DNA of 37,202 nt from an uncultured Opitutia bacterium. GTDB taxonomy: Bacteria > Verrucomicrobiota > Verrucomicrobiia > Opitutales > Opitutaceae. The notes beneath the pieces are model-generated. The model saw only the letters and a program-made list of their open reading frames with translations. It ran no database searches and was not told the origin of the DNA. Both the position numbers and the translations under genes were made by a program. The stretch covers positions 1 through 37,202 of the forward strand of contig CAIXKG010000170.1 of assembly GCA_903919985.1 (NCBI GenBank), read 5' to 3'. Below are positions 4,811-31,954 of this stretch, in pieces. Every line of letters starts with the position of its first letter. Position 1 is the stretch's first letter.

Positions 4811-4854
4811 AACTAACCCCTTTCCGTGTCGGTTGCGTGGCGGCTCTGTTACAA
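4811..4854 (-). promoter_or_regulatory. Pho-box-like promoter of the glycolipid operon
   Basis: Read on the minus strand, three 7-base units, TTGTAAC (4854-4848), CCGCCAC (4843-4837) and CCGACAC (4832-4826), repeat at exactly 11 bases. Eight bases later comes GTTAGTT (4817-4811) in the -10 position. The pattern matches the layout of the two other Pho-box-like promoters in this window and of known PhoB boxes (7-bp half-sites plus 4-bp linkers). The -10 match is weaker than in the other two. The predicted leader to the GT4 start codon is about 40 bases. Confidence 0.55.
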
Positions 4855-4941
4855 TTCGGACAAACGCTGCACCGGCGCCATTTCGGCGTAATTCGGGGTT
4901 GCGCTACAACCGGCGCTTTCTACGGTCGTTTTTTTTCGCGA

Positions 4942-7641
4942 ATGCAGTCTCACGGTCCGAAGCGCGTCTATACCCCCCATTCGCTCGAGTTCTGGTTTGG
5001 AAAGCTCGAGCAGGACTGGGCGGGACGCTTCACCTCCACCCAGTTGGAAGTTGGCCGGCAGATCTATCGCGACGGTCAGGTTCGCGAGCTGGAGTTGACC
5101 GAACGTGACGCCATCGTCCATCGGCGCGTGGAAAAAAAGGACGAGTACGCCGTCATCGCATGGGACGCCGAAGGCTTTTCGGTTCGCTCGTCGTCGACGG
5201 ATATTGAGGTGGCCCATGCACTCGCGGTCGCTGGGCTGCACGAGATCGAGGAGTTGGTGGCCGATGAAATTTCCCCATTGCCCGACGACGCCCCCCGGCC
5301 TTCGGGTGCGGCTCCGGGCCATGGTAATGCCCATAACCATAGCTTTGAATCGAGCCGTCCCGGTGCGATGACGCCGCGTGCGCATCCGCCTGCTGCGGCT
5401 GCGACGCAGCCTTCGGGCCATGGCATGGCGCGCGTCAATGGCGGCGTAAGCCCGGCTTCACGCTTGAGCGCAACGGCCCGACCGCTGTTGCTGGTTTTCA
5501 AAACCAAGGTCGCCGGACTTGCGTTTCAGGCCTTTTGGCTGGAGGCGGATCGCAAGACGCGCCGCGCCGCACTCGGGCCGGACGCGCATGCGAATAACAA
5601 CGGTCACATCTCGTCCGGCGAGCGCGCGAAGTTGATCGGGCTCGCGGCCTATGCGCGGAAAGCGCACTTCCACTATAATCAGGACAACGGGGCTTATCTG
5701 ATGGAGTCTCTCGTGGAGATTCCAAATTTTCTAAGGACGACGCTCCCCGCGTGGCGCCGGATGTTCGGCGTCGAACTCGACGAGAAGGCGGCGAATCTCA
5801 TCAAAGGCACACGTGCGATCGAAATCGAGGCCGTAGCCGAGCGGGCCGGCGGGACGCCCGAGGGCGGCGCCGACGCTGCGGGCCACACGGCGCTGAACCT
5901 GCGCTGGATTTTCCGCGCCGGCGAACGCCTGCTCACCGACAGCGAGGTGAACACGTTGCTCAAACGCGGCGGACAACCGGTGATTTTGCCAAACCTGGGC
6001 ATCGTCTCTTTACCGGCGGACCGCTGGGATTCGTTCAGCGCGTGGCAAAAAAACGTCGAAGAAACGCAAGGCCCCCGGGCGGCGGCGAGCGGGACACTTT
6101 CGCCGTACCTCGTATTTTCGCTTTTCAACGATGCGAAACTAAAGGTCACCCTTTCGCCCGAGATGGAAGCGTGGCGGCAGCGCGTGCTGGCGCCGACCGA
6201 GGCGACGCCCACGCTGCCGGAATTGCTTCGGCCCTATCAACGCCGAGGCGTGGAGTGGATGCATCATCTCTGCGATGTGGGCTGTCACGGGCTGCTTGCC
6301 GACGAGATGGGCCTCGGCAAAACCCTCCAGGTCCTTTCGCTCCTCGCCTCGCGGCCCGTGTTGGACAAGTCCAACGTGATCGTTTGCCCGGCGAGCGTGG
6401 TGCCGGTTTGGCGCGAGGAGATGGCCAAGTTTTTCCCGGCGCTTGTGGTGCAAGTCCTGAAGACCGGTCACGATTTTACGACCCATTCGGCGCCGGCAAT
6501 CTGGCTCGCGAGTTACACGCAGTTGCGCAAACACCGCGCAATGCTGGAAGGCGTCGAGTTCGGTTACGCTGTGTTGGACGAGGGCCAGTTCATCAAGAAC
6601 CCGGACGCAAAAATCACGCAGACCTGTTTCGCGGTTCGGGCACGGCATCGCATCGTGCTGACCGGAACCCCGCTCGAGAATCGTCAGCTCGATCTCTGGA
6701 GTATCTTTCGCTTTTTGCTGCCCGGCTTGCTGGGCTCCCGGGCGGCGTTCGAGGCGGCGTTGATCACGGATCGCGAAGGCACGCTCACGCGATTGCGCGC
6801 GCAGCTGGCGCCGTTTCTCCTGCGTCGGACGAAAAAGGAAGTGGCGACGGAGCTGCCGCAAAAAGTGGAGATCGACCTCGTGTGTCCGCTCACGGACGTC
6901 CAACGCGCGGAGTACGCTCGCATCTGTACGGAGGGCTTGGAACGCCTCGGTGACGACGTGGGCTCGGCGATGCGGGAAAAATCATTTGGCTTTCTCGCGT
7001 TGCTCACGCGGCTGCGCCAGACGTGTTGCGATCCCGACATGTTGCCGTGGCTCAAATCGCCGCTTTCCGACTCGGGCAAGATCAACCTCCTCGTGGAGAA
7101 ACTCGCGGAAATCGTCGGTAGCGGGCACAAGGTCGTGATCTTCTCGCAATTCGTGATGTTGCTCGAGCGTGTGCGCACGGCGCTTGCGACGCATTTTCCC
7201 GACTTGCCGCGTTATGAACTGACCGGGATGACGCTCGATCGCCAGAAACCGGTCCATGGATTTCAGACGGCGTCCGGCGCCGCGGCGATGTTGGTGTCGC
7301 TCAAGGCCGCGGGCACGGGAATCACATTGCACGCGGCGGATTACGTTTTCCTGCTCGATCCGTGGTGGAATCCGGCGGTTGAGGCCCAGGCCGTGGACCG
7401 CGTGCATCGCATCGGCCAGACGAACACGGTGTTTGTCTACCGCATGGTCACCGCCGGCACGATCGAGGAACGGATCCAGGCGTTGAAGGCGTCGAAGAAG
7501 GATTTGTTCGACAAGCTGATCGGCGGCCTTGGCGGGGATTTCGATCTGAGCCAGCATTTCAGTTCGTTGAAGAGTTTGGTGACGCTCACGGCCAACGTGG
7601 AAACCGACCACGAGCCGGAGCAGGCCTATACGCTCGATTGA
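4942..7641 (+). CDS. SNF2-family DEAD/DEAH-box helicase
   Basis: This is a large SNF2/Rad54-like ATPase of 899 residues. Lobe 1 has the Walker A motif DEMGLGKT (454-461), the Walker B box DEGQ (546-549, usually DEAQ) and motif III LTGTPLEN (about 573-580). Lobe 2 has RRTKKE, VVIFSQF, AGTGITLHAAD and the arginine-finger motif RVHRIGQ (820-826). The N-terminal ~100 residues (FWFGKLEQDW…QIYRDGQV) look like the SWIM-type domain that often precedes bacterial SNF2 proteins, but zinc-binding cysteines are absent. A low-complexity stretch rich in Pro and Ala follows (about 110-190). I chose the ATG at 4942; an open frame reaches a GTG at 4837, but that would run across the promoter of the divergent operon. 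The likely role is moving or remodelling protein-DNA complexes; the substrate is unknown. Confidence 0.92.
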   Translation: MQSHGPKRVYTPHSLEFWFGKLEQDWAGRFTSTQLEVGRQIYRDGQVRELELTERDAIVHRRVEKKDEYAVIAWDAEGFSVRSSSTDIEVAHALAVAGLHEIEELVADEISPLPDDAPRPSGAAPGHGNAHNHSFESSRPGAMTPRAHPPAAAATQPSGHGMARVNGGVSPASRLSATARPLLLVFKTKVAGLAFQAFWLEADRKTRRAALGPDAHANNNGHISSGERAKLIGLAAYARKAHFHYNQDNGAYLMESLVEIPNFLRTTLPAWRRMFGVELDEKAANLIKGTRAIEIEAVAERAGGTPEGGADAAGHTALNLRWIFRAGERLLTDSEVNTLLKRGGQPVILPNLGIVSLPADRWDSFSAWQKNVEETQGPRAAASGTLSPYLVFSLFNDAKLKVTLSPEMEAWRQRVLAPTEATPTLPELLRPYQRRGVEWMHHLCDVGCHGLLADEMGLGKTLQVLSLLASRPVLDKSNVIVCPASVVPVWREEMAKFFPALVVQVLKTGHDFTTHSAPAIWLASYTQLRKHRAMLEGVEFGYAVLDEGQFIKNPDAKITQTCFAVRARHRIVLTGTPLENRQLDLWSIFRFLLPGLLGSRAAFEAALITDREGTLTRLRAQLAPFLLRRTKKEVATELPQKVEIDLVCPLTDVQRAEYARICTEGLERLGDDVGSAMREKSFGFLALLTRLRQTCCDPDMLPWLKSPLSDSGKINLLVEKLAEIVGSGHKVVIFSQFVMLLERVRTALATHFPDLPRYELTGMTLDRQKPVHGFQTASGAAAMLVSLKAAGTGITLHAADYVFLLDPWWNPAVEAQAVDRVHRIGQTNTVFVYRMVTAGTIEERIQALKASKKDLFDKLIGGLGGDFDLSQHFSSLKSLVTLTANVETDHEPEQAYTLD

Positions 7642-7648
7642 ATTAAAG

Positions 7649-7725
7649 CTGGGCGGGGTGACCTCACCCCGTGCGCGATGTCGCTGGTTCTGCAACGCCG
7701 AGCGGAGTGGGGCACCCCGCCTCCA
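7649..7725. repeat. REP-like composite palindrome
   Basis: This contains a perfect 8-base-arm hairpin (7654-7661 CGGGGTGA with 7664-7671 TCACCCCG). The outer segment GGCGGGGTG near 7652 also pairs with CACCCCGCC near 7713-7721. The element sits just past the helicase stop codon. Its sequence differs from the palindrome at 239-307, so it would be a second REP-like family. Confidence 0.55.
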
Positions 7726-7743
7726 TTTAAAGGTCGATGAGCG

Positions 7744-7775
7744 AAACGAAAGCCCGGCGAACGCGGGCTTGTTTC
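7744..7775 (+). terminator. intrinsic terminator after the helicase gene
   Basis: The inverted repeat AAGCCCG (7750-7756) and CGGGCTT (7764-7770) has a 7-base loop. Pairing extends to GAAAC/GTTTC outside, with a 2-base bulge. The trailing run is only GTTTC, so termination may be moderate. It lies between the helicase gene and the EIIA gene, which argues against the longer EIIA reading frame that opens at 7737. Confidence 0.6.
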
Positions 7776-7805
7776 ATGCTAACATCCATTTACTTTCCCG
7801 CTGCC

Positions 7806-8267
7806 ATGTCGTTGCCCGAACTTATCGCTTCGCCGGACGTGCTGGTTCTCGACCTCGACGTGGTGAGCGGGGATGAGGCCATTCGCGCCTTGCATCACCG
7901 GCTGCGCGCCGCGACCCCGGACGTGAAGAACGCCGACCAATTTTTGCGGGACTTGCTTGAACGGGCGGCGCTCGCGTCGGTTTGCATCGCGGATGAGGTG
8001 GCGCTTCCGCATGCGCGCACCCTGGCGGTTGACCGGATTGTGCTCGCGGTGGCGCGGACGGCGGCGCCCGTGGCCTTTGATCCGGCGCATCCGAAGGTGC
8101 GGCTGGTGTTCCTGGTCGGTACGCCCAAGGAGGCGGTTGGGGAGTATTTGCAATTGGTGGCGGCGCTTTCGCGTTTGTTAAAGAATAAGGAGACGCGCGC
8201 GGCGTTGTTGGCGGCGCCCGCGGAAGATGAATTTCGCGCCATCCTGGCGCGGGCGCTCCAGCGATGA
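7806..8267 (+). CDS. PTS EIIA (fructose/PtsN-type) domain protein
   Basis: This single-domain protein of 153 residues belongs to the EIIA-Fru/Ntr family. The phosphorylatable histidine is H69 in VALPHARTLAVD, the family signature. LVFLVGTPKE is the conserved strand and loop further on. I chose the ATG at 7806 because the open frame upstream (to 7737) covers the terminator hairpin. No EIIB or EIIC permease genes are nearby, so a regulatory (PTS-Ntr-like) role is more likely than sugar uptake. The stop codon overlaps the start of the ClC transporter gene (ATGA), which implies coupled translation and a possible functional link to ion transport. Confidence 0.88.
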   Translation: MSLPELIASPDVLVLDLDVVSGDEAIRALHHRLRAATPDVKNADQFLRDLLERAALASVCIADEVALPHARTLAVDRIVLAVARTAAPVAFDPAHPKVRLVFLVGTPKEAVGEYLQLVAALSRLLKNKETRAALLAAPAEDEFRAILARALQR

Positions 8268-10039
8268 ACGCGGTGACGGATCCCGCGAAGCTCCTGGTGG
8301 AGCGCCTGCTGCGATTGTTGCGCTGGCGCGTGTGGATCCAGGAAAAACTCCAGCCGACCGAGTGGCAAATCACGCTGCTGTGGGCCGCGTTTGTGGGAGG
8401 ACTCGGTGCCTTGGTCTCGCTGGTTTTTCAGGGTCTGGCGGAAGGCGTGCACGATTTGCTGAGCGGATCCAGTGCGGGCGTCGTGGAGTCGATGCGACAA
8501 TTGCCGTGGTGGGCGGTGCTCGCGCTGCCGGCGGCGGGCGGACTGCTGGCGGGCCTGGTGCTCCTGCTTGGGCAACGCATCGCGCGCGGGCAGAGTTCGA
8601 CGGACTACATGGAGGCGATCGTGATCGGCTCGGGCCATCTGCCGATTCGCGCGAGTCTGGTGAAAAGCACGGCGGCACTTTTCTCGATTGGTTCGGGCGG
8701 GTCGATCGGTCGCGAAGGTCCGATGGTTCAGCTTTCCGCTGTAATGGCGTCATTCATCGGGCGCTGGCGGCAGTTCACGCCGCCGCAGTTGCGGCTGCTG
8801 GTCGCTTGCGGAGCGGCGGCGGGGATCGCATCGGCCTACAATGCCCCGATCGCGGGATCTTTCTTCGTTGCGGAAATTATTCTCGGTACGATCGCGATGG
8901 AAAGTTTGGGACCGCTCGCGGTGGCGGCGGTCGCGGCGGCGCTGACGGTGCGCGTGCTGACGAGTGAGGCGCAGCTCTACAAAGTACCGGCGTTCAAACT
9001 GAATTCACCGTGGGAGATGTTGCCCTACGTGGCTCTGGGATTGATCGCGGGCGTGGCGGCGCCGTGGTTTCTGCGGTCGTTGCGGCAGGCGGAAAAATTT
9101 TTCGTGGCCACGAAGCTGCCTTTGATCGCGCGGCTCACGCTCGGTGGACTCGTCGTTGGTGCGCTTGCGATCAAGGTGCCCGAAGTTACGGGGAACGGTT
9201 ACTCGGTGGTCGTTAACATCCTCAACGGGCACATCGTGTGGAGTGCGCTCCTCGTGATCTTTGCCTGCAAGTGGCTCGCGACGGCGGCCTCGTTCGGATC
9301 CGGTGCACCGGGCGGGGTGTTCACGCCGTCGTTGTTTATGGGCGCGAGTGTGGGTTATCTTTTTGGCACGGGCGTCCATGCGATTTGGCCGGCGGCGGCG
9401 CCGAATCCCGGCGCGTTCGCCTTGGTGGGGATGGGAGCCTTTCTCTCGGCGGCGAGCCGCGCGCCCGTGATGGCGGTTATTATGCTGTTCGAAATGACGC
9501 TGAGCTACGACATCATCCTGCCCCTGATGCTGTGCAGTGTGATTGCGTACTACACGGCGAAGGGCTTCGAGGATCGTTCGCTTTACAGTGAGGCGCTGAA
9601 GCGCAAGGCGGCGGAGACGCCCGGCGGCGGGGCCTTCGAGGTGGGCTCGGTCGCGGAACTCATGAAGAGCAAACCGCCCACGCTGCCCGCGGGCGCGCGG
9701 TTTGCGGAGATTGCCGGGCTGTTTCTTTCGCTGCGCGTCAACAATCTCTATGTGACCGACGGCGTCGGGCGTTTTCTGGGCGCGGTATCGTTGCACGACA
9801 TCAAACCCTACCTCGGTGAAGCCGAACTCGCCGAGCTGGTGATCGCGAAGGATATTTTGCGCGAAGATTTTCCCCGGGTCATGCCAACGGCTTCGTTGAG
9901 CGACGCGCTGGGTGGCTTTCTTAATTTCGAAGCGGAGCGCCTGCCGGTCGTTTCGCCCGATGGCACGCTGGTGGGTAGCCTGGCCAAGGGCGACCTGTTG
10001 CTGGCGCTGGTCGAGAAGCGCAAGAAGCCAGCGGTTTGA
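8264..10039 (+). CDS. ClC-family chloride channel/transporter with CBS domains
   Basis: This is a 591-residue integral membrane protein of the voltage-gated ClC family. The selectivity-filter signatures are GSGGSIGREGP (143-153, with E151 as the gating glutamate) and GSGAPGGVFTPSLFMGA (about 345-361). Multiple hydrophobic helices span about 35-440. A cytoplasmic pair of CBS-type domains follows (about 460-585: VGSVAELMKSKPPTL… and NNLYVTDGVGRFLGAVSLHDIKPYL, then the second copy). Aligned by eye to E. coli ClcA through PIAGSFFVAEII, the internal proton glutamate (E203 there) is replaced by a hydrophobic residue. That raises the possibility of a channel or altered coupling. The start overlaps the EIIA stop codon. 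Confidence 0.93.
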   Translation: MNAVTDPAKLLVERLLRLLRWRVWIQEKLQPTEWQITLLWAAFVGGLGALVSLVFQGLAEGVHDLLSGSSAGVVESMRQLPWWAVLALPAAGGLLAGLVLLLGQRIARGQSSTDYMEAIVIGSGHLPIRASLVKSTAALFSIGSGGSIGREGPMVQLSAVMASFIGRWRQFTPPQLRLLVACGAAAGIASAYNAPIAGSFFVAEIILGTIAMESLGPLAVAAVAAALTVRVLTSEAQLYKVPAFKLNSPWEMLPYVALGLIAGVAAPWFLRSLRQAEKFFVATKLPLIARLTLGGLVVGALAIKVPEVTGNGYSVVVNILNGHIVWSALLVIFACKWLATAASFGSGAPGGVFTPSLFMGASVGYLFGTGVHAIWPAAAPNPGAFALVGMGAFLSAASRAPVMAVIMLFEMTLSYDIILPLMLCSVIAYYTAKGFEDRSLYSEALKRKAAETPGGGAFEVGSVAELMKSKPPTLPAGARFAEIAGLFLSLRVNNLYVTDGVGRFLGAVSLHDIKPYLGEAELAELVIAKDILREDFPRVMPTASLSDALGGFLNFEAERLPVVSPDGTLVGSLAKGDLLLALVEKRKKPAV

Positions 10040-10048
10040 TCCGCCTAC

Positions 10049-10079
10049 CGGTTCGGTGCGCGTCCCGTGCACCGAACCG
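10049..10079 (+). terminator. stem-loop after the ClC gene
   Basis: Perfect 11-base arms CGGTTCGGTGC (10049-10059) and GCACCGAACCG (10069-10079) flank a 9-base loop, starting 9 bases past the stop codon. There is no T-tract, so it may be a weak or Rho-assisted terminator or an mRNA-stabilising hairpin. Confidence 0.55.
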
Positions 10080-10177
10080 TTGGTCGGCTTTCAGAACCCG
10101 TCCAACGGTCGGGTCCCCAGTGCTCCAGCGACGCGCCCCACCGAGGCAGAATGAGGCGGGCGCATTGTTTTCTCCAA

Positions 10178-10231
10178 GCGTAACGCAATCGTGACTTCTG
10201 AGTCATTAAATCGTGACACGCGCGGTCTAAA
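10178..10231 (+). promoter_or_regulatory. Pho-box-like promoter of the PstS-like gene
   Basis: Four 7-base units, GCGTAAC (10178), TCGTGAC (10189), GAGTCAT (10200) and TCGTGAC (10211), repeat at exactly 11 bases with 4-base linkers. Eight bases after the last unit comes TCTAAA (10226-10231) as a -10-like element. The same 8-base spacing and a nearly identical hexamer (TCTAAG) follow the tandem units before the porin-pst operon. This matches the architecture of PhoB-activated promoters, in which Pho boxes replace the -35 element. The leader to the ATG at 10309 is about 70 bases. Confidence 0.7.
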
Positions 10232-10308
10232 CTCCTGCGTCCAGTAATCACATAGCCATCTGGCACGTTCGTTTATCGAAACACCTCAACTCAGATTCGA
10301 AGCTAAAG

Positions 10309-11517
10309 ATGAAACCATTCCAGCAACTTCTCGCGGCCGTTTCTGTGCTCGCGTTCGCTAGCATCGCCACCGCCCAAACCACGACGCTCCGAATCACGGG
10401 ATCGACCGCCTTCCGCGCGGCCACGGTCACGGCGGTCCAGAACATCCTGCAGCCCGGGTATACCTTCGGTTACAACGGAACGAGCGTCACGGGCGCCGGC
10501 CAGTCGGTGTTTGTTGGCACGACGAAAGTCGGGAGCCTTCCGGTCGTCATCAAATGCTCGTGGTCCGGCTCGGTTGGCGGCGTGCAGACGATCGCGCAGC
10601 AGAGCCCGGCGATCACGGTGGCCAATTGGCTGTCGGAATCGATCAACACGCTGACGGTTGCGGGCACACCAGCCCTCAATTCGGGCTCAATCTATGATTC
10701 ACCGACCGGAGCGGATATCGCGATGTCAGATTCGTTTCAAAGTTCCACCGCCTTCTCCGGACCTGGTTATAACACCCTCGCCGATACGGTGGTCGGAGTG
10801 GTTCCATTCGTCTGGACGAAGGGTTCAAGCAACGACACTGCGGTTCAGGCCAGCCTGGCCAACTTCACCAATATGTCGCCGCTGATGGCCAAGCTGGTGC
10901 TCGCCGCCGGCGCGCCGCTCTCGATGTTCACCGGCACGGCCGCGGACTCGACGGTCTACGTCTACGCCATGGGTCGCGACGAGGATTCCGGTACCCGTCT
11001 TACGGCCTTCGCTGAATCGACCTTCGGTATTTTCGGATCTCCGATTCAGTATCAACCAACGATCACCAGCGGCGCGATCGCGTCCATCGCCCCTTGGCCG
11101 GCCGCGACCGTCCTGGGCATCAGCTATCCCACTGGCCACTCGGGATTCTCGAGCGGCGGCACGATGGCCACCAATCTCAACACTCCGGTGGCGACGACAG
11201 CTCGCGACGCGTTCTCCGCGAAGTTCGCCCTCGTGGCCTATTTCGGCGTGAACGACGCCAACGGCGTGAACGGGGGAAACAATAATCTCACGTACAACGG
11301 TGTGGCCTACAGCGCCGACAACGTCCGCGAAGGCAAATATACGTTCTGGGGGTACGAGCACCTGACTTATCGCAGCACCCTCGCTGGAAATGCGAAGACC
11401 GTCGCCGATCAGATCGCGAATCAGCTTAAGACCGCCGACGCCTCCGTGTCGGGCGTGTTGCTCTCGACGATGCATGTCTCCCGTTCCACCGAGGGCGCGG
11501 TGATCATCCATAATTGA
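10309..11517 (+). CDS. PstS-like exported phosphate-binding-type protein
   Basis: The protein has 402 residues with a clear signal peptide (MKPFQQLLAAVSVLAFASIA, cleavage probably after TAQ at 23). The mature start TLRITGSTAFRAA (26-38) resembles the first ligand-binding loop of PstS proteins, and GRDEDSGTR (about 222-230) resembles their later Ser-Gly-Thr loop. It is longer and more divergent than the classical PstS encoded at 33346-34173. It probably binds phosphate or a phosphorylated compound in the periplasm or at the surface, but no transporter genes sit beside it. The Pho-box-like promoter just upstream supports a phosphate link. An exported Ig-like protein follows after 70 bases and may be co-transcribed. 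Confidence 0.75.
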   Translation: MKPFQQLLAAVSVLAFASIATAQTTTLRITGSTAFRAATVTAVQNILQPGYTFGYNGTSVTGAGQSVFVGTTKVGSLPVVIKCSWSGSVGGVQTIAQQSPAITVANWLSESINTLTVAGTPALNSGSIYDSPTGADIAMSDSFQSSTAFSGPGYNTLADTVVGVVPFVWTKGSSNDTAVQASLANFTNMSPLMAKLVLAAGAPLSMFTGTAADSTVYVYAMGRDEDSGTRLTAFAESTFGIFGSPIQYQPTITSGAIASIAPWPAATVLGISYPTGHSGFSSGGTMATNLNTPVATTARDAFSAKFALVAYFGVNDANGVNGGNNNLTYNGVAYSADNVREGKYTFWGYEHLTYRSTLAGNAKTVADQIANQLKTADASVSGVLLSTMHVSRSTEGAVIIHN

Positions 11518-11587
11518 GCCACAAGCGTGCCATCGCGCTCCCGCGCCCTGCATGCCGAGTTCATTCTCCAATCTTAGGTCCCACGAC

Positions 11588-13414: not shown

Positions 13415-13469
13415 TTCCAACGATGCAGACGTTCGGGGAAATCCGGACGGCTTCATTCGCTCTTGAAAT

Positions 13470-15164
13470 ATGCAGCGCGGCCCCTCTGTCACAACGGAGG
13501 GGCCGGCTTTGTTCACTCCCACATTGTCCCCACTTTTGTTACAACCGTGCGTCCGCGGCCCAGCCTTTTATCGCTGGGCGCGACTGCTTGTTTTCTGCTC
13601 GGCGTTGGCGGTGAGCGACGCACAGGAGGTCGCCGGCGGCCCGAATCCCGTGGCGACGCGGACCGATGAAGCGGAGCCGACCTGGCTGATCCAGGAATAC
13701 CGGGTACAGGGCGTGCGGCATTTGAGCCGGGAGCAGGTGGAGGACGCGGTCTATCCCTTTCTGGGACCGGGCCGGAGTCGGGCAGACTTGGAAATGGCGC
13801 GTGCTGCGCTGGAAAAAGCCTACCGCGATTCCGGCTTAAATACGGTCGCCGTCCAACTGCCCGAGCAGTCGGTGCGTAACGGCCTGATTGTACTCCAGGT
13901 GGTCGAAGCCTCCGTCGCCCGGCTGCGCGTGGTGGGAGCCAAATATTCTTCGCCCGCGAAGATCAAAGCGATGGCTCCGTCGCTGGCGGAGGGAAAGGTG
14001 GTGAACTTCAATCAAGTCCCCCGCGAGATCGTCGCGCTCAACCAGCAACCCGATCGTCGGGTGACGCCGACGCTGCGCGCCGGCGCGGCGCCCGGCACGG
14101 TCGATGTCGACCTCAACGTGACCGAGAGCTCTCCGCTGCACGCAAACGTCGAGCTCAATAACCGGCGGAGCGCCCACACCAGCTCGCTTCGTCTCAACGG
14201 TTCATTCACTGACAACAATTTCTTGCAACGGGGTGATTCGCTCGGCCTCAGCTTTCAAGTCGCGCCGCAGCGCATGGACGACGCGAAAGTTTTTTCCGCC
14301 TTTTATCTGACGCGGCTGCCGACCGCCTCCGGTCTGAGTCTGATGGTGCAGGGTACAAAACAGGACAGCAACGTCTCGACGTTGGGCGGAGCCGCCGTGA
14401 CCGGGCGCGGCGAAACCGCGGGAGTTCGCGCAATCCTGCGACTGCCCGCCGGCAAAGATTTCTACGAATCGTTGAGTCTCGGCGTCGATTACAAGCATTT
14501 CGACCAGACGCTGCGGATCGCCGGCACCAGCATCGTCGCTCCGATCACTTACTATCCGCTGACGGCGAATTACAATGGTACCCTGGTGGGCACTGGACGC
14601 GAAACGGATTTCAGCCTCGGAGCCACGCTGCATGTCCGCGGACTCGGCAGCGATCCGGCGGCCTTCGACACCCGCCGCTATCGCGCCGATGGCGGTTTCG
14701 CTTATCTGCGCGGAGAGGTTTCCCACCTCCATGAGCTCGTTCGAGGCTTCCAGATTTTCGGCAAGGGCCAGGGCCAGCTCGCGAGCGGACCCTTGCTCGA
14801 CAGCGAGGAATTCAGCGGCGGTGGTCTCGCCACGGCGCGTGGCTATCTCGAATCCGAGGTCGTTGGGGACAATGCATTGTTCGGGTCGCTCGAGCTGCGC
14901 AGCCCCGCGCTCGGAAAGTCGATTTCTTCGAAGCTCAACGAGTGGCGCGTCTATGTTTTCACCGATGGCGGCTGGGTGACGATTCGGGACGCGCTCCCGC
15001 AGCAACACGCGCGGCTTTATCTGGCGAGCTACGGCGCCGGCAGCCGGTTTCGGCTGGACGATCATTTCAACGGTTCCCTCGAAGCCGGCTTCCCGCTGAT
15101 CGGCCAGGGCGAATCCAAACCCAACGATGTACGCTTCACCTTCCGGTTGTGGGCGGACTTTTAA
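13470..15164 (+). CDS. TpsB two-partner secretion transporter (ShlB/FhaC/HecB family)
   Basis: This is an Omp85-superfamily outer-membrane transporter that would secrete the large TpsA protein encoded at 20646-31874. After a signal-like segment (WARLLVFCSALAVSDAQ), a POTRA_2 domain (about 70-145: YRVQGVRHLSREQVEDAV…) is followed by a second ShlB-type POTRA (to about 225). A β-barrel with ATARGYLESE (the VRGY-type plug-loop motif) ends in a terminal phenylalanine, LWADF. Coordinates give the longest frame (564 residues), but the ATG at 13470 lies just before a terminator hairpin. Initiation at a downstream TTG, for example 13536 in front of the signal peptide, is likely. The next gene starts 7 bases after the stop. 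Unusually, five genes separate TpsB from its presumed TpsA partner. Confidence 0.88.
   Translation: MQRGPSVTTEGPALFTPTLSPLLLQPCVRGPAFYRWARLLVFCSALAVSDAQEVAGGPNPVATRTDEAEPTWLIQEYRVQGVRHLSREQVEDAVYPFLGPGRSRADLEMARAALEKAYRDSGLNTVAVQLPEQSVRNGLIVLQVVEASVARLRVVGAKYSSPAKIKAMAPSLAEGKVVNFNQVPREIVALNQQPDRRVTPTLRAGAAPGTVDVDLNVTESSPLHANVELNNRRSAHTSSLRLNGSFTDNNFLQRGDSLGLSFQVAPQRMDDAKVFSAFYLTRLPTASGLSLMVQGTKQDSNVSTLGGAAVTGRGETAGVRAILRLPAGKDFYESLSLGVDYKHFDQTLRIAGTSIVAPITYYPLTANYNGTLVGTGRETDFSLGATLHVRGLGSDPAAFDTRRYRADGGFAYLRGEVSHLHELVRGFQIFGKGQGQLASGPLLDSEEFSGGGLATARGYLESEVVGDNALFGSLELRSPALGKSISSKLNEWRVYVFTDGGWVTIRDALPQQHARLYLASYGAGSRFRLDDHFNGSLEAGFPLIGQGESKPNDVRFTFRLWADF
13478..13505 (+). terminator. intrinsic terminator between the Ig-like gene and tpsB
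   Basis: The 9-base arms CGGCCCCTC (13478-13486) and GAGGGGCCG (13497-13505) form a perfect stem with a 10-base loop, followed by GCTTTGTT. The hairpin sits eight bases after the first ATG of the tpsB frame. It therefore either lies inside that gene's 5' end or, more likely, shows that tpsB starts further downstream. Confidence 0.75.
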
Positions 15165-15171
15165 TCACTCC

Positions 15172-17070: not shown

Positions 17071-17076
17071 CCCGCC

Positions 17077-17475
17077 ATGCAGCTCCAGTCCGAAGACAAG
17101 CCCTACGACGACATCAACATCACGCCGATGCTGGATCTGGCGTATGTGCTGCTCGTGATTTTCATCCTGATGTGCACCGCCTCGGTGCAAGGCGTGAAGG
17201 TGAATCTGCCGCGCGCAAGCTCGGCGCCGAGCCTCGCGAAGCCGAAAACGCGCGCCATCACCGTCACGAACGAGGGTAAAATGTTCCTCGATACCGTGCC
17301 GGTCAGTTTGGCCGAACTCGAAGCCCGGCTGGCCCAGTACAAGGCGTCCACGCCCGACCTCCCCGTCGTGGTGAAGGGCGACAGCCTCACGCAGTACCAG
17401 GGCATCATGGACATTCTCGATGTCCTCGGCCGACTCGGCATCACCCAAGTCGGGCTCGCGACGAAGCCCCGCTGA
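17077..17475 (+). CDS. exbD: ExbD/TolR biopolymer transport protein
   Basis: This 132-residue protein has the ExbD layout: a short cytoplasmic N-terminus (DDINITPMLD), one membrane helix (about 20-36) with the proton-carrying aspartate D20, and a periplasmic domain ending in VLGRLGITQVGLAT. With the ExbB-type channel encoded just upstream it would form the proton-motive-force motor that drives the TonB-like protein encoded 33 bases downstream. Confidence 0.93.
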   Translation: MQLQSEDKPYDDINITPMLDLAYVLLVIFILMCTASVQGVKVNLPRASSAPSLAKPKTRAITVTNEGKMFLDTVPVSLAELEARLAQYKASTPDLPVVVKGDSLTQYQGIMDILDVLGRLGITQVGLATKPR

Positions 17476-17508
17476 AGACCCCCGCGGGAAAATTCCTACG
17501 CCGCTGTC

Positions 17509-18195: not shown

Positions 18196-18211
18196 CCCTT
18201 CCGTTCCATTT

Positions 18212-20026: not shown

Positions 20027-20028
20027 AC

Positions 20029-20649
20029 ATGAAAGCCTGCCTTCTACTATTGTCTGTTTTTACTTTGGCGGCCGTGGCCGCGTGGGGCGCGGAAACCGCG
20101 GAGACAAGCGACGCGCGTTTGCGGGAAGCGCTGCGCAGCGCAACCCTCCAGCTGCGTACCGCCGAAACCGAGCGCGCGAATCTGCAGTCCGCCCAAACCA
20201 CGTTGCTGGAGGAGAAAAAGGTCATCAGCGAAAAATTCGAAGTGCTCCGCAAGCAAACGGTCTTGGATCGTGCGGCGGACGAGAAAGCGATCGCGTCGCT
20301 GAAGACGCAGGTGTCCGCGCAACAGGACGAGTTGGCCCGCCTCAAGGAGGCTTTGGCGAAGAGCGAGGCGAGTCATCAGCAGGCTGCCGCGTTGGCGGTC
20401 GGCAAGGAAGGCGAGCGCGCCCAGCTGGCGGCGCAGATCACACGGCTCGAACAAAAGCTGGCCGACCGGGAGATCAAAAATCTGGCGCTGTTCAAAATCG
20501 GCAACGAGATACTCACGCGTTACGAGAAGTTCAGTCTCGGTGACGCACTGGCGGCGCGCGAGCCGTTCGTCGGCGCAACGCGAACCAGATTGGAGAATCT
20601 GGTGCAGGATTATGAGGACAAGCTCACGCAGCAAAGAGCCAAACCATGA
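20029..20649 (+). CDS. small exported coiled-coil protein
   Basis: I do not recognise a named family. The 206-residue protein has a signal peptide (MKACLLLLSVFTLAAVAAWG) and then an almost continuous coiled coil (about 30-150) rich in Glu, Lys, Gln, Ala and Leu. A short tail with LFKIGNEILTRYEKF and FVGATRTRLENLVQDYEDKL ends it. I chose the ATG at 20029, two bases after the porin stop codon; a frame opens earlier inside the porin gene. Its stop overlaps the start of the giant TpsA gene (ATGA). A periplasmic chaperone or spacer for TpsA or the porin is an inference from position only. Confidence 0.85.
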   Translation: MKACLLLLSVFTLAAVAAWGAETAETSDARLREALRSATLQLRTAETERANLQSAQTTLLEEKKVISEKFEVLRKQTVLDRAADEKAIASLKTQVSAQQDELARLKEALAKSEASHQQAAALAVGKEGERAQLAAQITRLEQKLADREIKNLALFKIGNEILTRYEKFSLGDALAAREPFVGATRTRLENLVQDYEDKLTQQRAKP

Positions 20650-26600: not shown

Positions 26601-29600
26601 GCCGCGCAGGTCGTGCGATCCGGGGTGAGTACGGCGGATGGGCCTGTGCTGACCATTGCTGCCGGCGCGCGGCTCTCCGGAGCCAGCGTGACCCTCGATT
26701 CTACGAGCGCGACGAACCTGAATGCGGCCGCCACGATCGCCGGAACGTCGCTCGCGCTTGGGAGCGGAAAAATTTCCCTTCAACTCGCGAATGCGGGCCA
26801 GCTCCCGGCCGACAGCGGTCTCGTACTTTCCAGCGCGACCTTGCAAACGTTCCAGAGCGCTCAATCGCTCTCGTTGCTCAGCTATTCGACGATCGACATC
26901 TACGGCACCGGTCAGATCGGTGCGCTGGATGCGAGCGGAAATCCGACGCTGGCTTCGCTCGCGCTGCACAGCGGCGGCGTTCGCGGCTTCAATCAAAGCG
27001 GCGGAAGCGTGTTGCTGGCTGCTCGAAATGTTTTGGTCGACAATAGTGCGGGCGCTTCCGCCCCTGTGCCCGGGACCGTGGTTGGTGGCACGCTGACGTT
27101 CAACGCCGGCACATTTCGGATCGGCGCGAATCAGACCGCCGTCACGAATTTCGGGGCGGTTCAAATCAATGCGTCCGACGCCATCGTTGGCCAAGGCACG
27201 GGTGGACTCGCGGTGCAGGGCGATCTGACTCTGCGAACCCCGTTGCTCACAGGGGCAACCGCGTCGTCGCAGACGATTTCAGCCGGCGGAGCTTTGACGC
27301 TGAGTGCGCCCGCGACGACCACGGTGTCCGCCGCGGTTCCGGGGCTCGGCGCAAGTTTGGTCTTAAGTGGCGCGAAGGTTACCACCGGCAGCTCCATCGT
27401 TTTGCCCAGTGGAACTCTGAGCGTTAGCGCTTCGACGGGAGATCTCACGATCGGCGCCAACAGCCGACTCGATATGGGCGGAACCACGATTGCTTTCTAC
27501 GATTTGCTCCAATCCACGGCGGGGGGACAACTGAACCTGACGGCGAGCGCGGGGAACGTGAATCTTGCCAGCGGGAGTACCATCAATGTTGCAGCGCCGT
27601 CGACATCGGCCGGCGCGGGCCTGCTGAATGTCAACGCGCCGAACGGCATCTTCACCACGGCTGGCACGTTGCTCGGCGGCGGCGGCTCGTTCCTGCTCGA
27701 TGTGGGACGGGTGCCGGGCGAAGGCATCGCCGCGCTGAATGGCGCGCTCAACGCGGGCGATTTTTCCCTGCTGCGAACTTTGCGGGTGAGGACGGGTAAC
27801 GTGGTCGTCGACGGCACCGCCACCGCGCATATTTTCAATCTTTCGGCCGACCTAGGCTCGATCACGGTCTCGTCACAGGGAGTGATCAATGCCGCGGGCG
27901 ACCGCGGTGGTGCGATCAATCTCATGGCGGGCGGCAGCGTCACGCTGCAATCTGGATCGAAGCTCATTGCGACGGGGAACGACTTCGACGCGGCCGGCAA
28001 GGGAGGCGCGGTCGCCTTGGAAACCCGCGGGCTCAATGGCGGCGTGGTCGATATTCAGTCGGGTTCGAATATCGACTTGTCGGTCGCGAGCAACAACGCC
28101 GGTAGCGCGGCCTTGGGCCAATTCACGGGGACGCTTCATCTGCGGGCGCCGCAGAACGCCACAAATTCTGACCTAGCGATTGCGCCGATTAACGGCCGTC
28201 TCCTCGGCGCATCGAGTATCGCCGTCGAAGGATTCAAGATTTTCGATCTGAGCTCGGTTGCCGAGGCGCTGATCACGAGTGCGGTTCAGTCGAGCGTGCT
28301 GGCGAACGGGCAGATCTTCGCGGGCAACACGACCGCGATCGCGAACCGTCTGCTCGCGAACAACGCAGCGCTGGCCTCAGTGCTGCATGTCCGGCCGGGC
28401 GCAGAAATCATCAATCCGCTCGGCGACCTCACGCTGGCGCAGGCTTGGGATCTTTCCACCTACCGTTTCGGCCCGGGCGGACGCGAGCCGGGCGTACTGA
28501 CCCTTCGCGCCGCGGGCAATCTGAACTTTGATTACAGCTTCAATAGCATCTCCCGCAAGGCGACGATCGGACTGTTGAGCGACGGCTTTGGCGGGACGTC
28601 GAGCTATGGTCTGTGGGACGCACCGCTGCTGACTCCCGGCACGGCGTCCTGGTCCTATCGCCTCGTGGCCGGTGCCGATTTTACGGCCGCCGACTTTCGC
28701 GGCGTGAGGTCCGCCGGCGATCCGAAAGCGAGCGGTTCGCTTCTGCTCGGGAGGAATACGCCCGCTTTGCCGGTGCCGAGCGATCCCAACAGTCCGAACA
28801 GCACGGCGAACCTTCGGCAAAATATCATTCCCAATTTCTTCCAGGTGATTCGCACCGGCACGGGCGACATCGACATTGTGGCGGCCCGTGACGTCCAGTT
28901 TTTCAATCCCATCGCCGCCATTTATACCGCGGGAACCCAAGCCTCCCCGCTGGCCAATTTCGATCTGCCCAATTTGAGCGAGGCGGTGCGCAACAGTCGC
29001 TTGGGAGCAACGCAGGACCCGATCTACGGTGCGCAATTCAGTTTGGCCGGGGGCAATGTGACGATCGCGGCGCAGCATGACATCATGCATGCGATCGTGG
29101 CCGGCTTTCCGGCGACGCTGGTCGCGGATTCGTCGCGCGAGTTGCCGAATAATTGGCTCTATCGGCGCGGGTACGTCGACCCGGCCACCGGCCAGTTTGG
29201 CGCGACGCATCCGGGCGGCGAAATCGCTTCGACCGCGTGGTGGGTGGACTTCACCAATTTCTTCGAAGGCGTGGGCGCGCTGGGCGGCGGCAACGTCACA
29301 CTCGCGGCCGGTAATAACATTACCAACGTCGACGCGGTGGTGCCGACCAATGGGCGCATGCCCAAGGGCGCGCCCGATGCGTCCAAGCTGGTGGAACTCG
29401 GCGGCGGCGACCTCGTGGTTCGCGCCGGCGGCGAAATCGATGGAGGTGTCTACTATGTTGAGCGCGGTCGCGGCACGCTCGCCGCGGGTACGAGCATTCA
29501 CACGAACAGCACCCGGGCCGCGCTCACGCAGTCCGATATCGTGGCCCTGGAGAATCTCAAGCGGGCGGCCGATCCCACCACCTGGCTGCCGACCACGCTC

Positions 29601-31874
29601 TTTCTCGGCAAAGGCAGCTTCGACATCTCCGCGCGTGGGGACCTGTTGCTCGGTCCGATCGCGAATCCGTTTCTGCTGCCGCAGGGCGTGAATAATAATG
29701 CTTACGAGAAAACCTATTTTTCAACTTACGGCACCAGTGATGCGGTCAATGTTTCGTCGCTCACGGGTACCCTGACGATTCGGGACAGCGCCGACGGCCG
29801 CGCCGGTTCGCTCGCGGCTTGGTTGCAGAGCGTCGACCTTTACGATGGAGCGAGGCACCAGACGTTTTCCTCGTATTCCCAGCCCTGGCTCCGGTTGCTC
29901 GAGACGGATATCACTCCGTTTTTCACGGTGACAGCGCTCATGCCCGCCACGCTGCGGGCCACTGCGTTCTCGGGTGATCTCAATCTCGTCGGCAGTTTGA
30001 CGTTGTCGCCCTCGCCGCAGGGAACACTTGATCTAACCGCGGCCAAATCGATCAATGGAATGCAGCCCAACGGCGTAAACTCCACGACCGGAAATCGCAT
30101 CTGGGGGACGAGCCTGATCAATCTTTCCGACGCCGATCCGACGCGGACTCCAGGGGTCGCGACGCCGGTTTCCCTGTCGGCCACGGCGGCGCTCACGCCG
30201 ACGGTGACGCCGATCGATCTGTTGGATGCGGTTAATGGTTTGTTCAACGAGTCCGGTTCAATTCAGGGACTCTTCGGAGTGATCCAAACCAAGCAGGCCC
30301 TGCACGCGCGCGGTCCGCTGCACCTTGCCGATCTGATTCCATTGCATGTGTACGCGGCGGGCGGGGATATTTCCGGCGTCAGTTTGTTTTCGGCGAAGGC
30401 TGCACGGGTGATTGCCGGGCGGGATTTGACCGATGTCGGGCTTTACCTCCAAAACACGCGGCCATCGGATGTCAGTGTCGTGGCGGCCGGTCGCGACTTG
30501 ATCGCCTTCGATCTGAACTCACCCCTGCGCATTGCCGCCCAGACCGGCCGCAACGAGCTGCTGCAGGGGAGCGTGACCACGCCGGGCCCGGCCAGCGGCA
30601 ATCCGACGTCGGGAGACATTCAAATCAGCGGGCCGGGTACGCTCGAAGTTTTAGCGGGCCGCAATTTCGATCTCGGTGTCGGACCCAGCGCTGGCGATGG
30701 CACGGCCGTGGGCATCACCAGCATCGGGAACGCGCGGAATCCTAATCTGCCCTTTGCTGGCGCGGAGATAATCGCGGGAGCAGGCATCGGCAACGCGTCG
30801 AGCCTGAGTAAGAGCGCGATCGATTTCGCCGCGTTCGTGAGCAAATATTTGGATCCATCAAGTGCCGGAGCGGCGGCTGATCGTTACCTGCCGGAGCTGG
30901 GGCGGGAGCTCCAGATGCCCGGAGCGAGCAAGTCGGCGGTCTGGTCGGCCTTCACCGGTCTTCCCCTAGAGAAACGTTCGGCGCTCGCGCTTGGTATTTT
31001 CTACGCCGTCCTGCGGGATGCCGGTCGCGATCACGGCCGTCCGTCGTCCCCGGGTTATCGAAATTACGACGCGGGGTTCGCTGCGATCGCCGCACTGTTT
31101 CCGGGCTCGAAGTGGACCGGCGATATTTCCCTGACCTCGCGCGAGATCAAAACGGCGAGCGGCGGCGATATCAGCCTGTTCGCACCCGGCGGTCAGCTCA
31201 CCGTGGGCTTCGATCTCGTCGGCAGCCAGGCAGTCGATCAGGGCGTGCTGACCGAGGACGGAGGGAGTATTTCCATTTTTACAAAAAACAGCGTCGTCGT
31301 CGGCACCTCGCGAATTTTCACCCTGCGCGGCGGGAATGAGATCATCTGGTCTTCTTCCGGCAATATCGCCGCCGGAGCTTCGTCGAAGACGGTACAATCG
31401 GCTCCTCCCACGCGAGTCTTGATCGACCCTCAGAGTGGAGACGTGAAAACCGATTTGGCGGGTCTGGCCACCGGCGGCGGTATTGGCGTGCTTGCCACCG
31501 TGACCGGCGTTCCGCCGGGCGACGTCGATTTGATTGCTCCAGGTGGAACGATCGATGCCGGCGACGCCGGGATTCGTGTATCCGGAAATCTGAACGTGTC
31601 GGCCCTGCAGGTGGTCAACGCGAGCAACATCCAAGTCAGCGGTACGAGCGTTGGCACTCCGAGCGTGGCCGCGCCAAGTCTGGGCGGCTTGGCCGCGACC
31701 GCCGCGAGCGCATCGGCGGCCACCACCAATGCCGCTACCGACGTATCCCGAGCCGGTCGGGCCGATGCCGAACCGGAGCACCAGCCGTCGGTGATCACGG
31801 TTGAGGTGCTGGGCTACGGCGGCGGGGAAGTAATGACCTCGCTCGAAAACTCCCACGCGGGCGACCGAGGTTGA
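20646..31874 (+). CDS. giant filamentous-haemagglutinin-family TpsA protein with DUF3739-like C-terminus
   Basis: The protein has 3742 residues. A signal sequence (about 1-27) is followed by an Ala-rich stretch and the TPS (haemagglutinin activity) domain, about 105-290, with NQNGIIFGG (223-231) and VNTHALVASSL. More than 3000 residues of β-helix-type repeats follow, rich in Gly, Ala, Ser and Thr (recurrent GG-I-V-AG-I and L-LSA units). The region near 3450-3660 (FYAVLRDAGRDHG, GGDISLFAPGG and PPTRVLIDPQSGDVKTDLAG) matches what I recall as DUF3739. An Ala/Ser-rich tail ends it. It should cross the outer membrane through the TpsB encoded at 13470 and form a surface fibre. No CdiA-like toxin tip or immunity gene is seen. 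Its start codon overlaps the previous stop, so it is the last gene of the long operon. Confidence 0.93.
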   Translation: MMKRGGDFRRWPIVLAGVLSATLALRAGDILRGGSATVVPDAAADGVAMSRGGIAQPRSNAPDTLARTAQALQAVQAMQAAARAAAVAGANNLGSDPNHAGRILPNVPDGLTTGGLQIATGVPLNLSQPAAGENPLLWQGARLPAQSVANGKTTVTVTQASQQALLTWQTFNVGKNTTLVFDQSAGGDRASEWIAFNKINDPTGVPSQILGRIQAQGQVYVLNQNGIIFGGSSQVNTHALVASSLPLNDNLVARGLLNNPDQQFLFSTIPLDAGANGSPSFTPPAALTPDGKSGDIIVQAGALITSPTSDEHVGGRVALFGPNVTNAGTISTPDGQTILAAGQQIGLAAHDSNDPSLRGLDVFVGLGGGAVTNSSNALIDAPRGSILFGGKTLSQLGAVTSSTSVAFNGRIDLLANYNAVSSGGFAGLPAFFPQATGSVMFGPNSVTDILPELNSTDRVVGTRLALASQLNVQAQFIYLASRATLLAPSASLALSAGNWNLTGAGATAQDYFAFTGGQIYLDAGAAIDVAGSSDVTASMLENIVAVQLRGSELANSPLQRDGPLRGQTVQVDIRQTGTFNGQTWIGTPLADVSGYAALVDHTVGELTTAGGSVDLKAGGSVVLQPGSTINVSGGWINYAGGTVETTKLIADGRLIDISQATPDRVYDGLYTGGTTTTDAKWGVTSSTTNPRLAANFEAGYVQGGDGGNLAISAPAMALDGALFGSTFAGPRQRLIAPALGSLTLTFRGQDPSLPQNLFPAFSPTAPNIVFQTGGTSSPVVPAFSVTGAILPEERKRTVTLSPDLFSASGFGALKIDNSDGGISVPVGTSLVLPARGALTWLAANINVAGKIVAPSGSLAFTVFDRSPYADRALTGGAVPATPQPDATRGKFTLASTAELSTAGLFVDDRPTSVVSDQGPLATVGGSIAITSFTADLAVGSLIDASGGVALSSAGKATYGNGGSIAIKAGQDPKITSLLGGQLALGSILQSFSGAKGGTLTLLAPSVQIGGGTTNRDTLLLTPEFFSQGGFAGFNVNGLGAATAQTERFLPAVLIAPGTLITPVVQSRLIATNASDVAGAFTTVVQPVGVRAPVTLSFGAVGVRDLFNSAQPIAVRGDLIVGEGAVIRTDPRGTVALSGDTALVRGSIFAPGGAISVTGAKDSILFFSDSTQAVPTVELAAGSVLSTAGATLLTPDVRGFRTGTVLPGGTINVAGNIVARAGAQLDVSGAADRLDLAPSYSLFNGLGNSSTAGSRVVATAVESNAGSISFVGGQELFVDATLRGASGGPSALGGSLSISSGRFYAAGTNTQTPLDPTLTISQRQPVLTFGATAIGSPVRDAAGVAVVGQGYFAVETFAQTGFDTLALRGTVQFSGPITLSAARSLTLGTSGIISADAAVTLSAPYVSLGAAFQTPLLAQEQGPAFTVQGQPFYAPPSFGAGTLNVNASLIDLGNLSLQKIGQATFVANNGDIRGAGTLAIAGDLTLRAGVIYPPSALTFTLVAFDSTVAGVVRPGSVTIGAAGTRALPLSAGGTLNVYASTILQGGTLRAPIGAINLGWDGTGTAPKDFVSNHSVSATQQLTLTTGSVTSVSAIDPVTGSAATIPFGLILNGASWIDPASNDITVSGAPEKTVTISAQRVVEQTGATIDLRGGGDLYAYRWVSGVGGTKDILAGTGGFAVLPGYQAGYAPYAPFNPTTLNNNFGRDAGYVNAALAAGDRVYLSGVSGLPAGFYTLLPARYALLPGAFLVTPKSGVPPAETVTQPDGASVVSGYRFNGLTTEPVARPLAAAFEVAPQSVVRTRAEYDDSLANAFLSQAAIARSAVSPRLPVDSGQLVLEATRSMTIQGTVLAQAPKAGRGGLVDISSPGSIVIGGPNTVAAAGTLVLSSTELNAFGAESLLIGGIRRSTDAGTAVSVNTDSITVDNAGRSLSGSDLVLAANRSLTVANGGIVEQTGSATSSAGTLLLGSTAAPGSGNGVLLRVTGDPAAQVVRSGVSTADGPVLTIAAGARLSGASVTLDSTSATNLNAAATIAGTSLALGSGKISLQLANAGQLPADSGLVLSSATLQTFQSAQSLSLLSYSTIDIYGTGQIGALDASGNPTLASLALHSGGVRGFNQSGGSVLLAARNVLVDNSAGASAPVPGTVVGGTLTFNAGTFRIGANQTAVTNFGAVQINASDAIVGQGTGGLAVQGDLTLRTPLLTGATASSQTISAGGALTLSAPATTTVSAAVPGLGASLVLSGAKVTTGSSIVLPSGTLSVSASTGDLTIGANSRLDMGGTTIAFYDLLQSTAGGQLNLTASAGNVNLASGSTINVAAPSTSAGAGLLNVNAPNGIFTTAGTLLGGGGSFLLDVGRVPGEGIAALNGALNAGDFSLLRTLRVRTGNVVVDGTATAHIFNLSADLGSITVSSQGVINAAGDRGGAINLMAGGSVTLQSGSKLIATGNDFDAAGKGGAVALETRGLNGGVVDIQSGSNIDLSVASNNAGSAALGQFTGTLHLRAPQNATNSDLAIAPINGRLLGASSIAVEGFKIFDLSSVAEALITSAVQSSVLANGQIFAGNTTAIANRLLANNAALASVLHVRPGAEIINPLGDLTLAQAWDLSTYRFGPGGREPGVLTLRAAGNLNFDYSFNSISRKATIGLLSDGFGGTSSYGLWDAPLLTPGTASWSYRLVAGADFTAADFRGVRSAGDPKASGSLLLGRNTPALPVPSDPNSPNSTANLRQNIIPNFFQVIRTGTGDIDIVAARDVQFFNPIAAIYTAGTQASPLANFDLPNLSEAVRNSRLGATQDPIYGAQFSLAGGNVTIAAQHDIMHAIVAGFPATLVADSSRELPNNWLYRRGYVDPATGQFGATHPGGEIASTAWWVDFTNFFEGVGALGGGNVTLAAGNNITNVDAVVPTNGRMPKGAPDASKLVELGGGDLVVRAGGEIDGGVYYVERGRGTLAAGTSIHTNSTRAALTQSDIVALENLKRAADPTTWLPTTLFLGKGSFDISARGDLLLGPIANPFLLPQGVNNNAYEKTYFSTYGTSDAVNVSSLTGTLTIRDSADGRAGSLAAWLQSVDLYDGARHQTFSSYSQPWLRLLETDITPFFTVTALMPATLRATAFSGDLNLVGSLTLSPSPQGTLDLTAAKSINGMQPNGVNSTTGNRIWGTSLINLSDADPTRTPGVATPVSLSATAALTPTVTPIDLLDAVNGLFNESGSIQGLFGVIQTKQALHARGPLHLADLIPLHVYAAGGDISGVSLFSAKAARVIAGRDLTDVGLYLQNTRPSDVSVVAAGRDLIAFDLNSPLRIAAQTGRNELLQGSVTTPGPASGNPTSGDIQISGPGTLEVLAGRNFDLGVGPSAGDGTAVGITSIGNARNPNLPFAGAEIIAGAGIGNASSLSKSAIDFAAFVSKYLDPSSAGAAADRYLPELGRELQMPGASKSAVWSAFTGLPLEKRSALALGIFYAVLRDAGRDHGRPSSPGYRNYDAGFAAIAALFPGSKWTGDISLTSREIKTASGGDISLFAPGGQLTVGFDLVGSQAVDQGVLTEDGGSISIFTKNSVVVGTSRIFTLRGGNEIIWSSSGNIAAGASSKTVQSAPPTRVLIDPQSGDVKTDLAGLATGGGIGVLATVTGVPPGDVDLIAPGGTIDAGDAGIRVSGNLNVSALQVVNASNIQVSGTSVGTPSVAAPSLGGLAATAASASAATTNAATDVSRAGRADAEPEHQPSVITVEVLGYGGGEVMTSLENSHAGDRG

Positions 31875-31911
31875 GTGGGTTGCCTGATCGTGTGCGGTGC
31901 CTTTTCCCATT

Positions 31912-31954
31912 TTGTCACACAGTCGCCATCATTTCGTAACAATCAAAGTCTAAG
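31912..31954 (+). promoter_or_regulatory. Pho-box-like promoter of the porin-pst operon
   Basis: Three 7-base units, TTGTCAC (31912), TCGCCAT (31923) and TCGTAAC (31934), repeat at exactly 11 bases with 4-base linkers. Eight bases after the last unit comes TCTAAG (31949-31954) in the -10 position. It lies directly before a porin and the pst genes, a classical PhoB target, which supports the assignment. The predicted leader is about 35 bases. Confidence 0.75.

Follow-up and report, generated by a model that had tools for sequence, protein, structure and literature searches.

An 11-base repeat array shared by three promoters of an uncultured Opitutia bacterium is probably a Pho box

Contig CAIXKG010000170.1 of an uncultured Opitutia bacterium (assembly GCA_903919985.1; Verrucomicrobiota, Opitutaceae), analysed over 37,202 nucleotides and hereafter called the window, carries three intergenic arrays of 7-base units with a common spacing, which raises the question of whether one regulator reads them and, if so, which. 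A first-pass annotation, made from the sequence letters, proposed that they are Pho boxes, the operators of the phosphate regulator PhoB. Our analysis supports this: with a probability of roughly 0.93, the three sites are Pho boxes for a PhoB-type regulator encoded at the far end of a pstSCAB-phoU-phoB-phoR cluster. Site 1 fronts a glycosyltransferase cluster, site 2 a PstS-like gene leading an operon that resembles the Pseudomonas aeruginosa pdt operon, and site 3 porin-pstS-pstC-pstA; by gene family, all three precede phosphate-starvation genes, as the annotation had argued. The elements of the three sites are as follows.

4859–4865, minus strand: site 1, degenerate upstream unit GTTTGTC
4826–4854, minus strand: site 1, probable Pho box; units TTGTAAC (4854–4848), CCGCCAC (4843–4837) and CCGACAC (4832–4826)
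4810–4815, minus strand: site 1, presumed −10 TAGTTA, a poor one, 10 bp past the last unit
10178–10217, plus strand: site 2, probable Pho box; units GCGTAAC (10178–10184), TCGTGAC (10189–10195), GAGTCAT (10200–10206) and TCGTGAC (10211–10217)
10228–10233, plus strand: site 2, presumed −10 TAAACT, 10 bp past the last unit
31901–31907, plus strand: site 3, degenerate upstream unit CTTTTCC
31912–31940, plus strand: site 3, probable Pho box; units TTGTCAC (31912–31918), TCGCCAT (31923–31929) and TCGTAAC (31934–31940)
31951–31956, plus strand: site 3, presumed −10 TAAGGT, 10 bp past the last unit

Read directly, the units recur at exactly 11 bases at all three sites, in the numbers annotated (three, four and three). 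A Pho box consists of two 11-nucleotide direct repeat units and its consensus differs between species, according to the passages of PMC4415409 drawn on here; each site holds at least two such repeats, with seven conserved and four less conserved bases. The proposed unit YYGTNAC holds in part: the third base is G and the sixth is A in all ten units, and five units fit it exactly. Within the window, a three-unit pattern with at most 3 mismatches matches 10 times (some matches overlapping) against a shuffle mean of 1.79, with 0 of 100 shuffles reaching 10, a weak and partly circular test because the sites themselves suggested the pattern.

A stronger test comes from other genomes. We built a matrix from the ten units and scanned 300 bases upstream of the first genes of orthologous loci, excluding the window genome's own rows from all held-out counts and dropping two loci beforehand (L075, the second piece of one gene, and L099, which lacks upstream DNA). 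The PstS-like search contributed all its 19 matches, and the glycosyltransferase and porin loci were the best 30 among many. At period 11, a score of at least 15 was reached by 59 of 74 held-out promoters: 25/29 in front of glycosyltransferases, 8/17 in front of PstS-like genes and 26/28 in front of porins. Each of the other periods from 8 to 16 brought no more than one promoter per set to 15, and dinucleotide shuffles reached it in 0.17–0.29% of cases. Antisense controls reached 15 in 0/29, 0/17 and 5/28 promoters of the three sets, respectively, and the units vary less across relatives than the spacer bases between them. Furthermore, a scan of both strands of 332,034 bases of relatives' loci, a set selected for holding such operons, gave only 23 matrix hits, of which, judged by position, 16 precede a PstS-like, porin or glycosyltransferase gene, five precede an Ig-domain or pst gene, and two lie elsewhere; the matrix does not strike promoters at random. 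Two of the annotation's three refuting outcomes, random matrix hits and orthologous promoters that fail to keep the units, are thereby contradicted.

Aligning the promoters that score at least 15, own genome included, refines the anatomy. Porin promoters (n=27) read NNTTNNC-N4-TYGTMAC-N4-NCGHCAY-N4-YCGTAACA, and glycosyltransferase promoters (n=26) end in YCGNCAC instead. The first of these units, 11 bases upstream of the others, is the degenerate one seen at sites 1 and 3, beyond the three units annotated at each; its two T and its C are conserved in 77–100% of porin and 92–96% of glycosyltransferase promoters, and the normal array is therefore one of four half-sites. Downstream, a [T/C]ANNNT hexamer starts 10 bases past the last unit in 31 of 59 held-out promoters, whereas no other offset between 0 and 25 has it in more than four; the remaining 28 have no exact match at that offset. 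The annotated eight bases followed by TCTAAA, TCTAAG or GTTAGTT are literally present, but given this preference the −10 is better read as ten bases followed by TAAACT, TAAGGT or, poorly, TAGTTA. The array would thus stand at the −35 position, about 10 bp ahead of the −10.

This geometry is that of E. coli, where the phoA units CTGTCAT and TTGTCAC are joined by aaag, with TATAGT following after ten bases, and phoB has ten bases before CATAAT; in pstS, hexamers that may be the −10 lie at offset 10 after two units. The likeness extends to the 7+4 direct repeats, the core GTCA and the use of several tandem units, as in pstS. In contrast, TYGTMAC, NCGHCAY and YCGTAACA or YCGNCAC replace CTGTCAT, which is not matched by the unit columns of the window or its relatives, and the Opitutaceae arrays add the degenerate fourth unit and have less A+T-rich spacers. 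The annotated departure from the E. coli consensus is modest, E. coli phoA itself holding a TTGTCAC unit, and CTGTCAT does not define the wider Pho-box family because the consensus varies by species (PMC4415409, same passages).

To look beyond these loci, we built a sequence-only profile, R1, from 53 of the 62 promoters scoring at least 15, the other nine being near-duplicates or weaker ones left out by our own choice. Its match lists may be incomplete, since only 150 first-look candidates per genome (14 family genomes) or 28 (phylum sample) were scored. Twelve of the 14 family genomes have a match at E≤1. At E≤0.001, to which the regulon tally is limited, there are 20 matches, five of them training data; the other 15 precede porin genes (7), pstS-type genes (PBP_like_2; 2), glycosyltransferases (2), stand-alone receiver genes (2) and other genes (2), some of the searched genomes being closely related to training genomes. 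The four best matches within the window's own genome are site 1 (E 1.4e-7), site 3 (3.7e-7), a site on another contig (C139:50868; 0.0022) and site 2 (0.0029), the window sites being training data and the C139 site not; weaker matches follow at E 0.012 (window 14962–14988) and E 0.31. A plain pattern search of this genome gave 18 matches against 6 for a reversed control pattern: the three window sites, one C139 site and 14 inside open frames of at least 120 codons.

The C139 box stands before a 69-codon open reading frame (ORF) with 58–59-codon relatives in three congeners (L221, at G000:C139:50963-51169, with L222, L223 and L224), found in 4/250 family genomes, all of the window's genus. Both congeners with upstream DNA keep the box (scores 18.1 and 18.0) with a −10 at offset 10; the third contig starts inside the box and reads TTGTAAC, ten bases, TAACTT. 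When the DNA of the C139 region was compared, one congener matched it at 72% along 192 bases and another genome over a short stretch, and repeats appeared inside C139. Mismatches at the three codon positions number 13, 15 and 21 of 59 each, which hints faintly that the small ORF may be coding, and an Rfam search of the region returned nothing up to E 1.

Could the likeness of the three sites lie in how they were read, by coincidence, or be left over from the relatedness of the promoters, without regulatory signal? The exact fit of only half the units to the annotated consensus speaks for this, as does the 18-to-6 ratio in the own-genome search, from which it follows that most single matches mean little. 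The period specificity in held-out promoters contradicts coincidence for the porin and glycosyltransferase sets, however, and promoters that are not homologous carry the same grammar, the −10 offset is preferred in held-out promoters, and a fourth site was found by profile alone with its box conserved in congeners. We consider this explanation very improbable.

Which regulator reads the arrays is indicated by gene linkage. The window contig stops inside pstB, and contig C154 of the same genome opens inside pstB, without its beginning, and continues with phoU, phoB and phoR. All five long named loci (L147, L149, L150, L153 and L154) keep the order porin-pstS-pstC-pstA-pstB-phoU-phoB-phoR downstream of a box; in L153, 1.9 kb separate pstS from pstC. 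Aligned over 227 residues, the PhoB of the window's genome and that of E. coli are 46% identical, and RTVDxHxRRLR is retained in the recognition helix, as judged against E. coli PhoB and its contact residues only; linkage to pst, phoU and phoR together with this helix marks the gene as PhoB-type. The last ~100 bases of the window itself look chimeric: at 37100–37202 the reading frame of pstB is interrupted and A+T-rich sequence appears, ...MALSQELAFKGVTVNTVSPGYIGTDMVKAIR, which we take to be acetoacetyl-CoA-reductase-like. A weak box-like match at 37094–37122, one of the ten window matches to the three-unit pattern, was rejected, as it sits in this probably chimeric end.

Several observations weigh against the assignment to PhoB or against the strength of the conservation. 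PhoB scores 243.9 bits against TIGR02154, below the curated cut-off of 296.2 (a threshold that no more than 2 of 14 well-known control genomes exceed), and PhoR 278.1 bits, below its cut-off of 334.2; the same genome holds four further near-full-length PhoB-profile matches. Antisense scans of porin promoters reach the threshold in the five cases given above. The glycosyltransferase and porin loci, chosen as the 30 best matches, are biased towards close relatives and do not form independent samples, and the PstS-like promoters are the least constant set, four of them scoring at most 3 (L064, L067, L072 and L074). Site 1 has a poor −10, and two of the 14 family genomes (G048 and G110) have no R1 match even at E 1.

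Those four additional regulators give substance to another explanation, in which the boxes bind a different OmpR-family regulator of the same genome that uses tandem ~11-bp half-sites, phosphate genes being only part of its regulon. The kinase's best score is to PnpS, under its cut-off, and box-like arrays also stand in front of a gene for a stand-alone receiver protein and of genes with no known role. Against this, the box-linked regulator in relatives is PhoB/PhoR behind pstSCAB-phoU, porin, pstS and glycosyltransferase promoters account for 11 of the 15 held-out matches across genomes, and the −10 lies as far from the box as it does in E. coli phoA and phoB. A regulator other than PhoB is thus improbable, if less so than coincidence.

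By analogy with the E. coli system, from which binding, phosphorylation, sigma recruitment and induction at these sites are extrapolated, phosphate scarcity would lead PhoR to phosphorylate PhoB, and PhoB protomers would bind the 11-bp repeats head-to-tail, each taking one unit. The last of them would occupy the −35 place, 10 bp before the [T/C]ANNNT −10, and recruit the main sigma factor. This would switch on phosphate uptake through the outer-membrane porin and Pst, the replacement of phospholipids by glycolipids, and an operon of two-partner secretion, TonB and giant-protein genes with its own PstS-like protein. The genes behind the three sites are as follows.

3581–4765, minus strand: glycosyltransferase with GT4-type domains (Pfam; NCBIfam matches below cut-offs only)
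2128–3675, minus strand: monogalactosyldiacylglycerol (MGDG) synthase-like or diglucosyl-diacylglycerol synthase-like protein (PF06925; NCBIfam below cut-off)
1187–2131, minus strand: YegS/DAGK-type lipid kinase (PF00781; TIGR00147 over cut-off)
342–1160, minus strand: calcineurin-like phosphoesterase (PF00149), candidate PlcP by context
10309–11517, plus strand: P0001, by sequence reading a PstS-like secreted protein, whose gene leads the pdt-like operon
11552–31874, plus strand: rest of the pdt-like operon (Pfam/NCBIfam families; order in relatives)
31996–33309, plus strand: outer-membrane porin, Porin_5 (PF16930)
33346–36920, plus strand: pstS, pstC and pstA (TIGR02136, TIGR02138 and TIGR00974, all over cut-off)

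The cluster behind site 1 recalls the PlcP-glycosyltransferase clusters for lipid remodelling in marine bacteria, which likewise combine phosphoesterase and glycosyltransferase genes, some with an upstream Pho box, and PlcP has been reported in Verrucomicrobia (both from the cited part of PMC4796936). Unlike those clusters, the window's set consists of glycosyltransferase, MGDG-synthase-like, lipid kinase and phosphoesterase genes.

Behind site 2, P0001 has no Pfam or NCBIfam match, and matches to it occur in 17 of 120 family genomes, its own included. It is followed by an Ig-domain protein, ShlB/TpsB, ExbB, ExbD, TonB, Porin_5, a 233-residue ORF and a 3742-residue protein carrying a filamentous-haemagglutinin N-terminal domain. 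Eleven of 12 relatives' loci keep the order PstS-like, TpsB, ExbB, ExbD, TonB, porin, 233-residue ORF, exoprotein, which is not a frequency because the loci were picked for their PstS-like match, mostly with a porin match nearby; ten of those 11 have an Ig-domain match between PstS-like and TpsB, and the twelfth locus runs off its contig. Two loci (L178 at 4988, L183 at 16247) show a second Pho-box match before a second Ig-domain gene inside the operon. The operon was probably inserted, as a stretch of ~22 kb, into the phosphate island between its chloride-channel gene and porin-pst, because SNF2 and the porin lie 2.6–2.9 kb apart in each of the five named loci that have the two, compared with 24 kb in the window (10178–31874 set against 5710–8292 of L147).

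The core order TpsB, ExbB, ExbD, TonB, porin with a large TpsA exoprotein is that of P. aeruginosa pdt/PUMA3 (PA0690-PA0696), as given in the part of PMC7035377 consulted; the likeness is one of gene families against the published table, as distinct from the P. aeruginosa protein sequences themselves. In the window, however, PstS-like and Ig-domain proteins lead the operon and the giant protein comes last. The control also appears to differ: pdt expression requires PhoB and the extracytoplasmic function (ECF) sigma factor VreI, with a pho box upstream of a separate −35 (PMC4971064, cited passages), whereas the window's box ends 10 bp before the −10, a position for direct activation. A Pfam scan of 19 window ORFs, the only part of the genome that this search covered, showed no sigma-factor family.

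The annotated "local" phosphate regulon is only partly right, since the three sites lie in the window but the box also occurs elsewhere in the genome and in relatives. Box-fronted genes there include a PAP2-type phosphatase (L171) and, with a weak match (E 0.016), a phosphoesterase of the calcineurin-like type (L134). In four family genomes (L117, L130, L131 and L170; Pfam was run on L131 only), a Pho-box-like array precedes the gene for a stand-alone response-regulator receiver protein, which in three of them sits beside a gene that reads as ParA-like. A 493-residue protein in G044 and a 134-residue protein in G005 (L165 and L124) are also box-fronted and have no Pfam match.

In a phylum sample of 194 genomes, 20 have an R1 match at E≤0.001. 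They comprise 17 of the 19 listed family genomes, eight of which contributed no sequence to R1, and three genomes from other families of the class. Two of these three matches precede a Porin_5 gene, and no ORF of 100 codons was seen behind the third box in its 1.6-kb locus; none of the 15 listed genomes from other families of the same order was matched. Moreover, in a scan of 1,100-base segments, run without shuffles, 11 of 23 related porins from other families of the class score at least 15 at period 11, some of the hits lying far upstream (L193 and L203), against 0 or 1 at other periods. The 11-base grammar therefore extends beyond the family.

The arrays are best described as Pho boxes of an already known type with a local consensus, a well-supported and modestly surprising result. 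A bolder proposal, which we put forward tentatively and with the odds somewhat against it, is that PhoB of Verrucomicrobiia reads an operator of four places, each with a code of its own (NNTTNNC at place 0, TYGTMAC at place 1, NCGHCAY at place 2, and at place 3 YCGTAACA before porin-pst or YCGNCAC before glycolipid genes), that the dependence of place 3 on promoter type could rank the promoters, that one such operator drives the pdt-like system, a phosphate-scavenging surface machine, directly and without an ECF sigma factor, and that another drives the genus-specific small protein. Among the matches listed from the open-access literature, no other verrucomicrobial Pho box or pdt-like operon is described, although a figure in PMC4796936, a source used here in part, may mark one.

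For the Opitutaceae, whose named members were met here entirely as metagenome assemblies, the analysis provides a usable consensus for phosphate control, checked on other genomes. It links a giant secreted protein, along with its TonB-type genes, to the control of phosphate response in a bacterium other than Pseudomonas, and it predicts phosphatase-like genes, a small protein and a stand-alone receiver protein as further members of the regulon.

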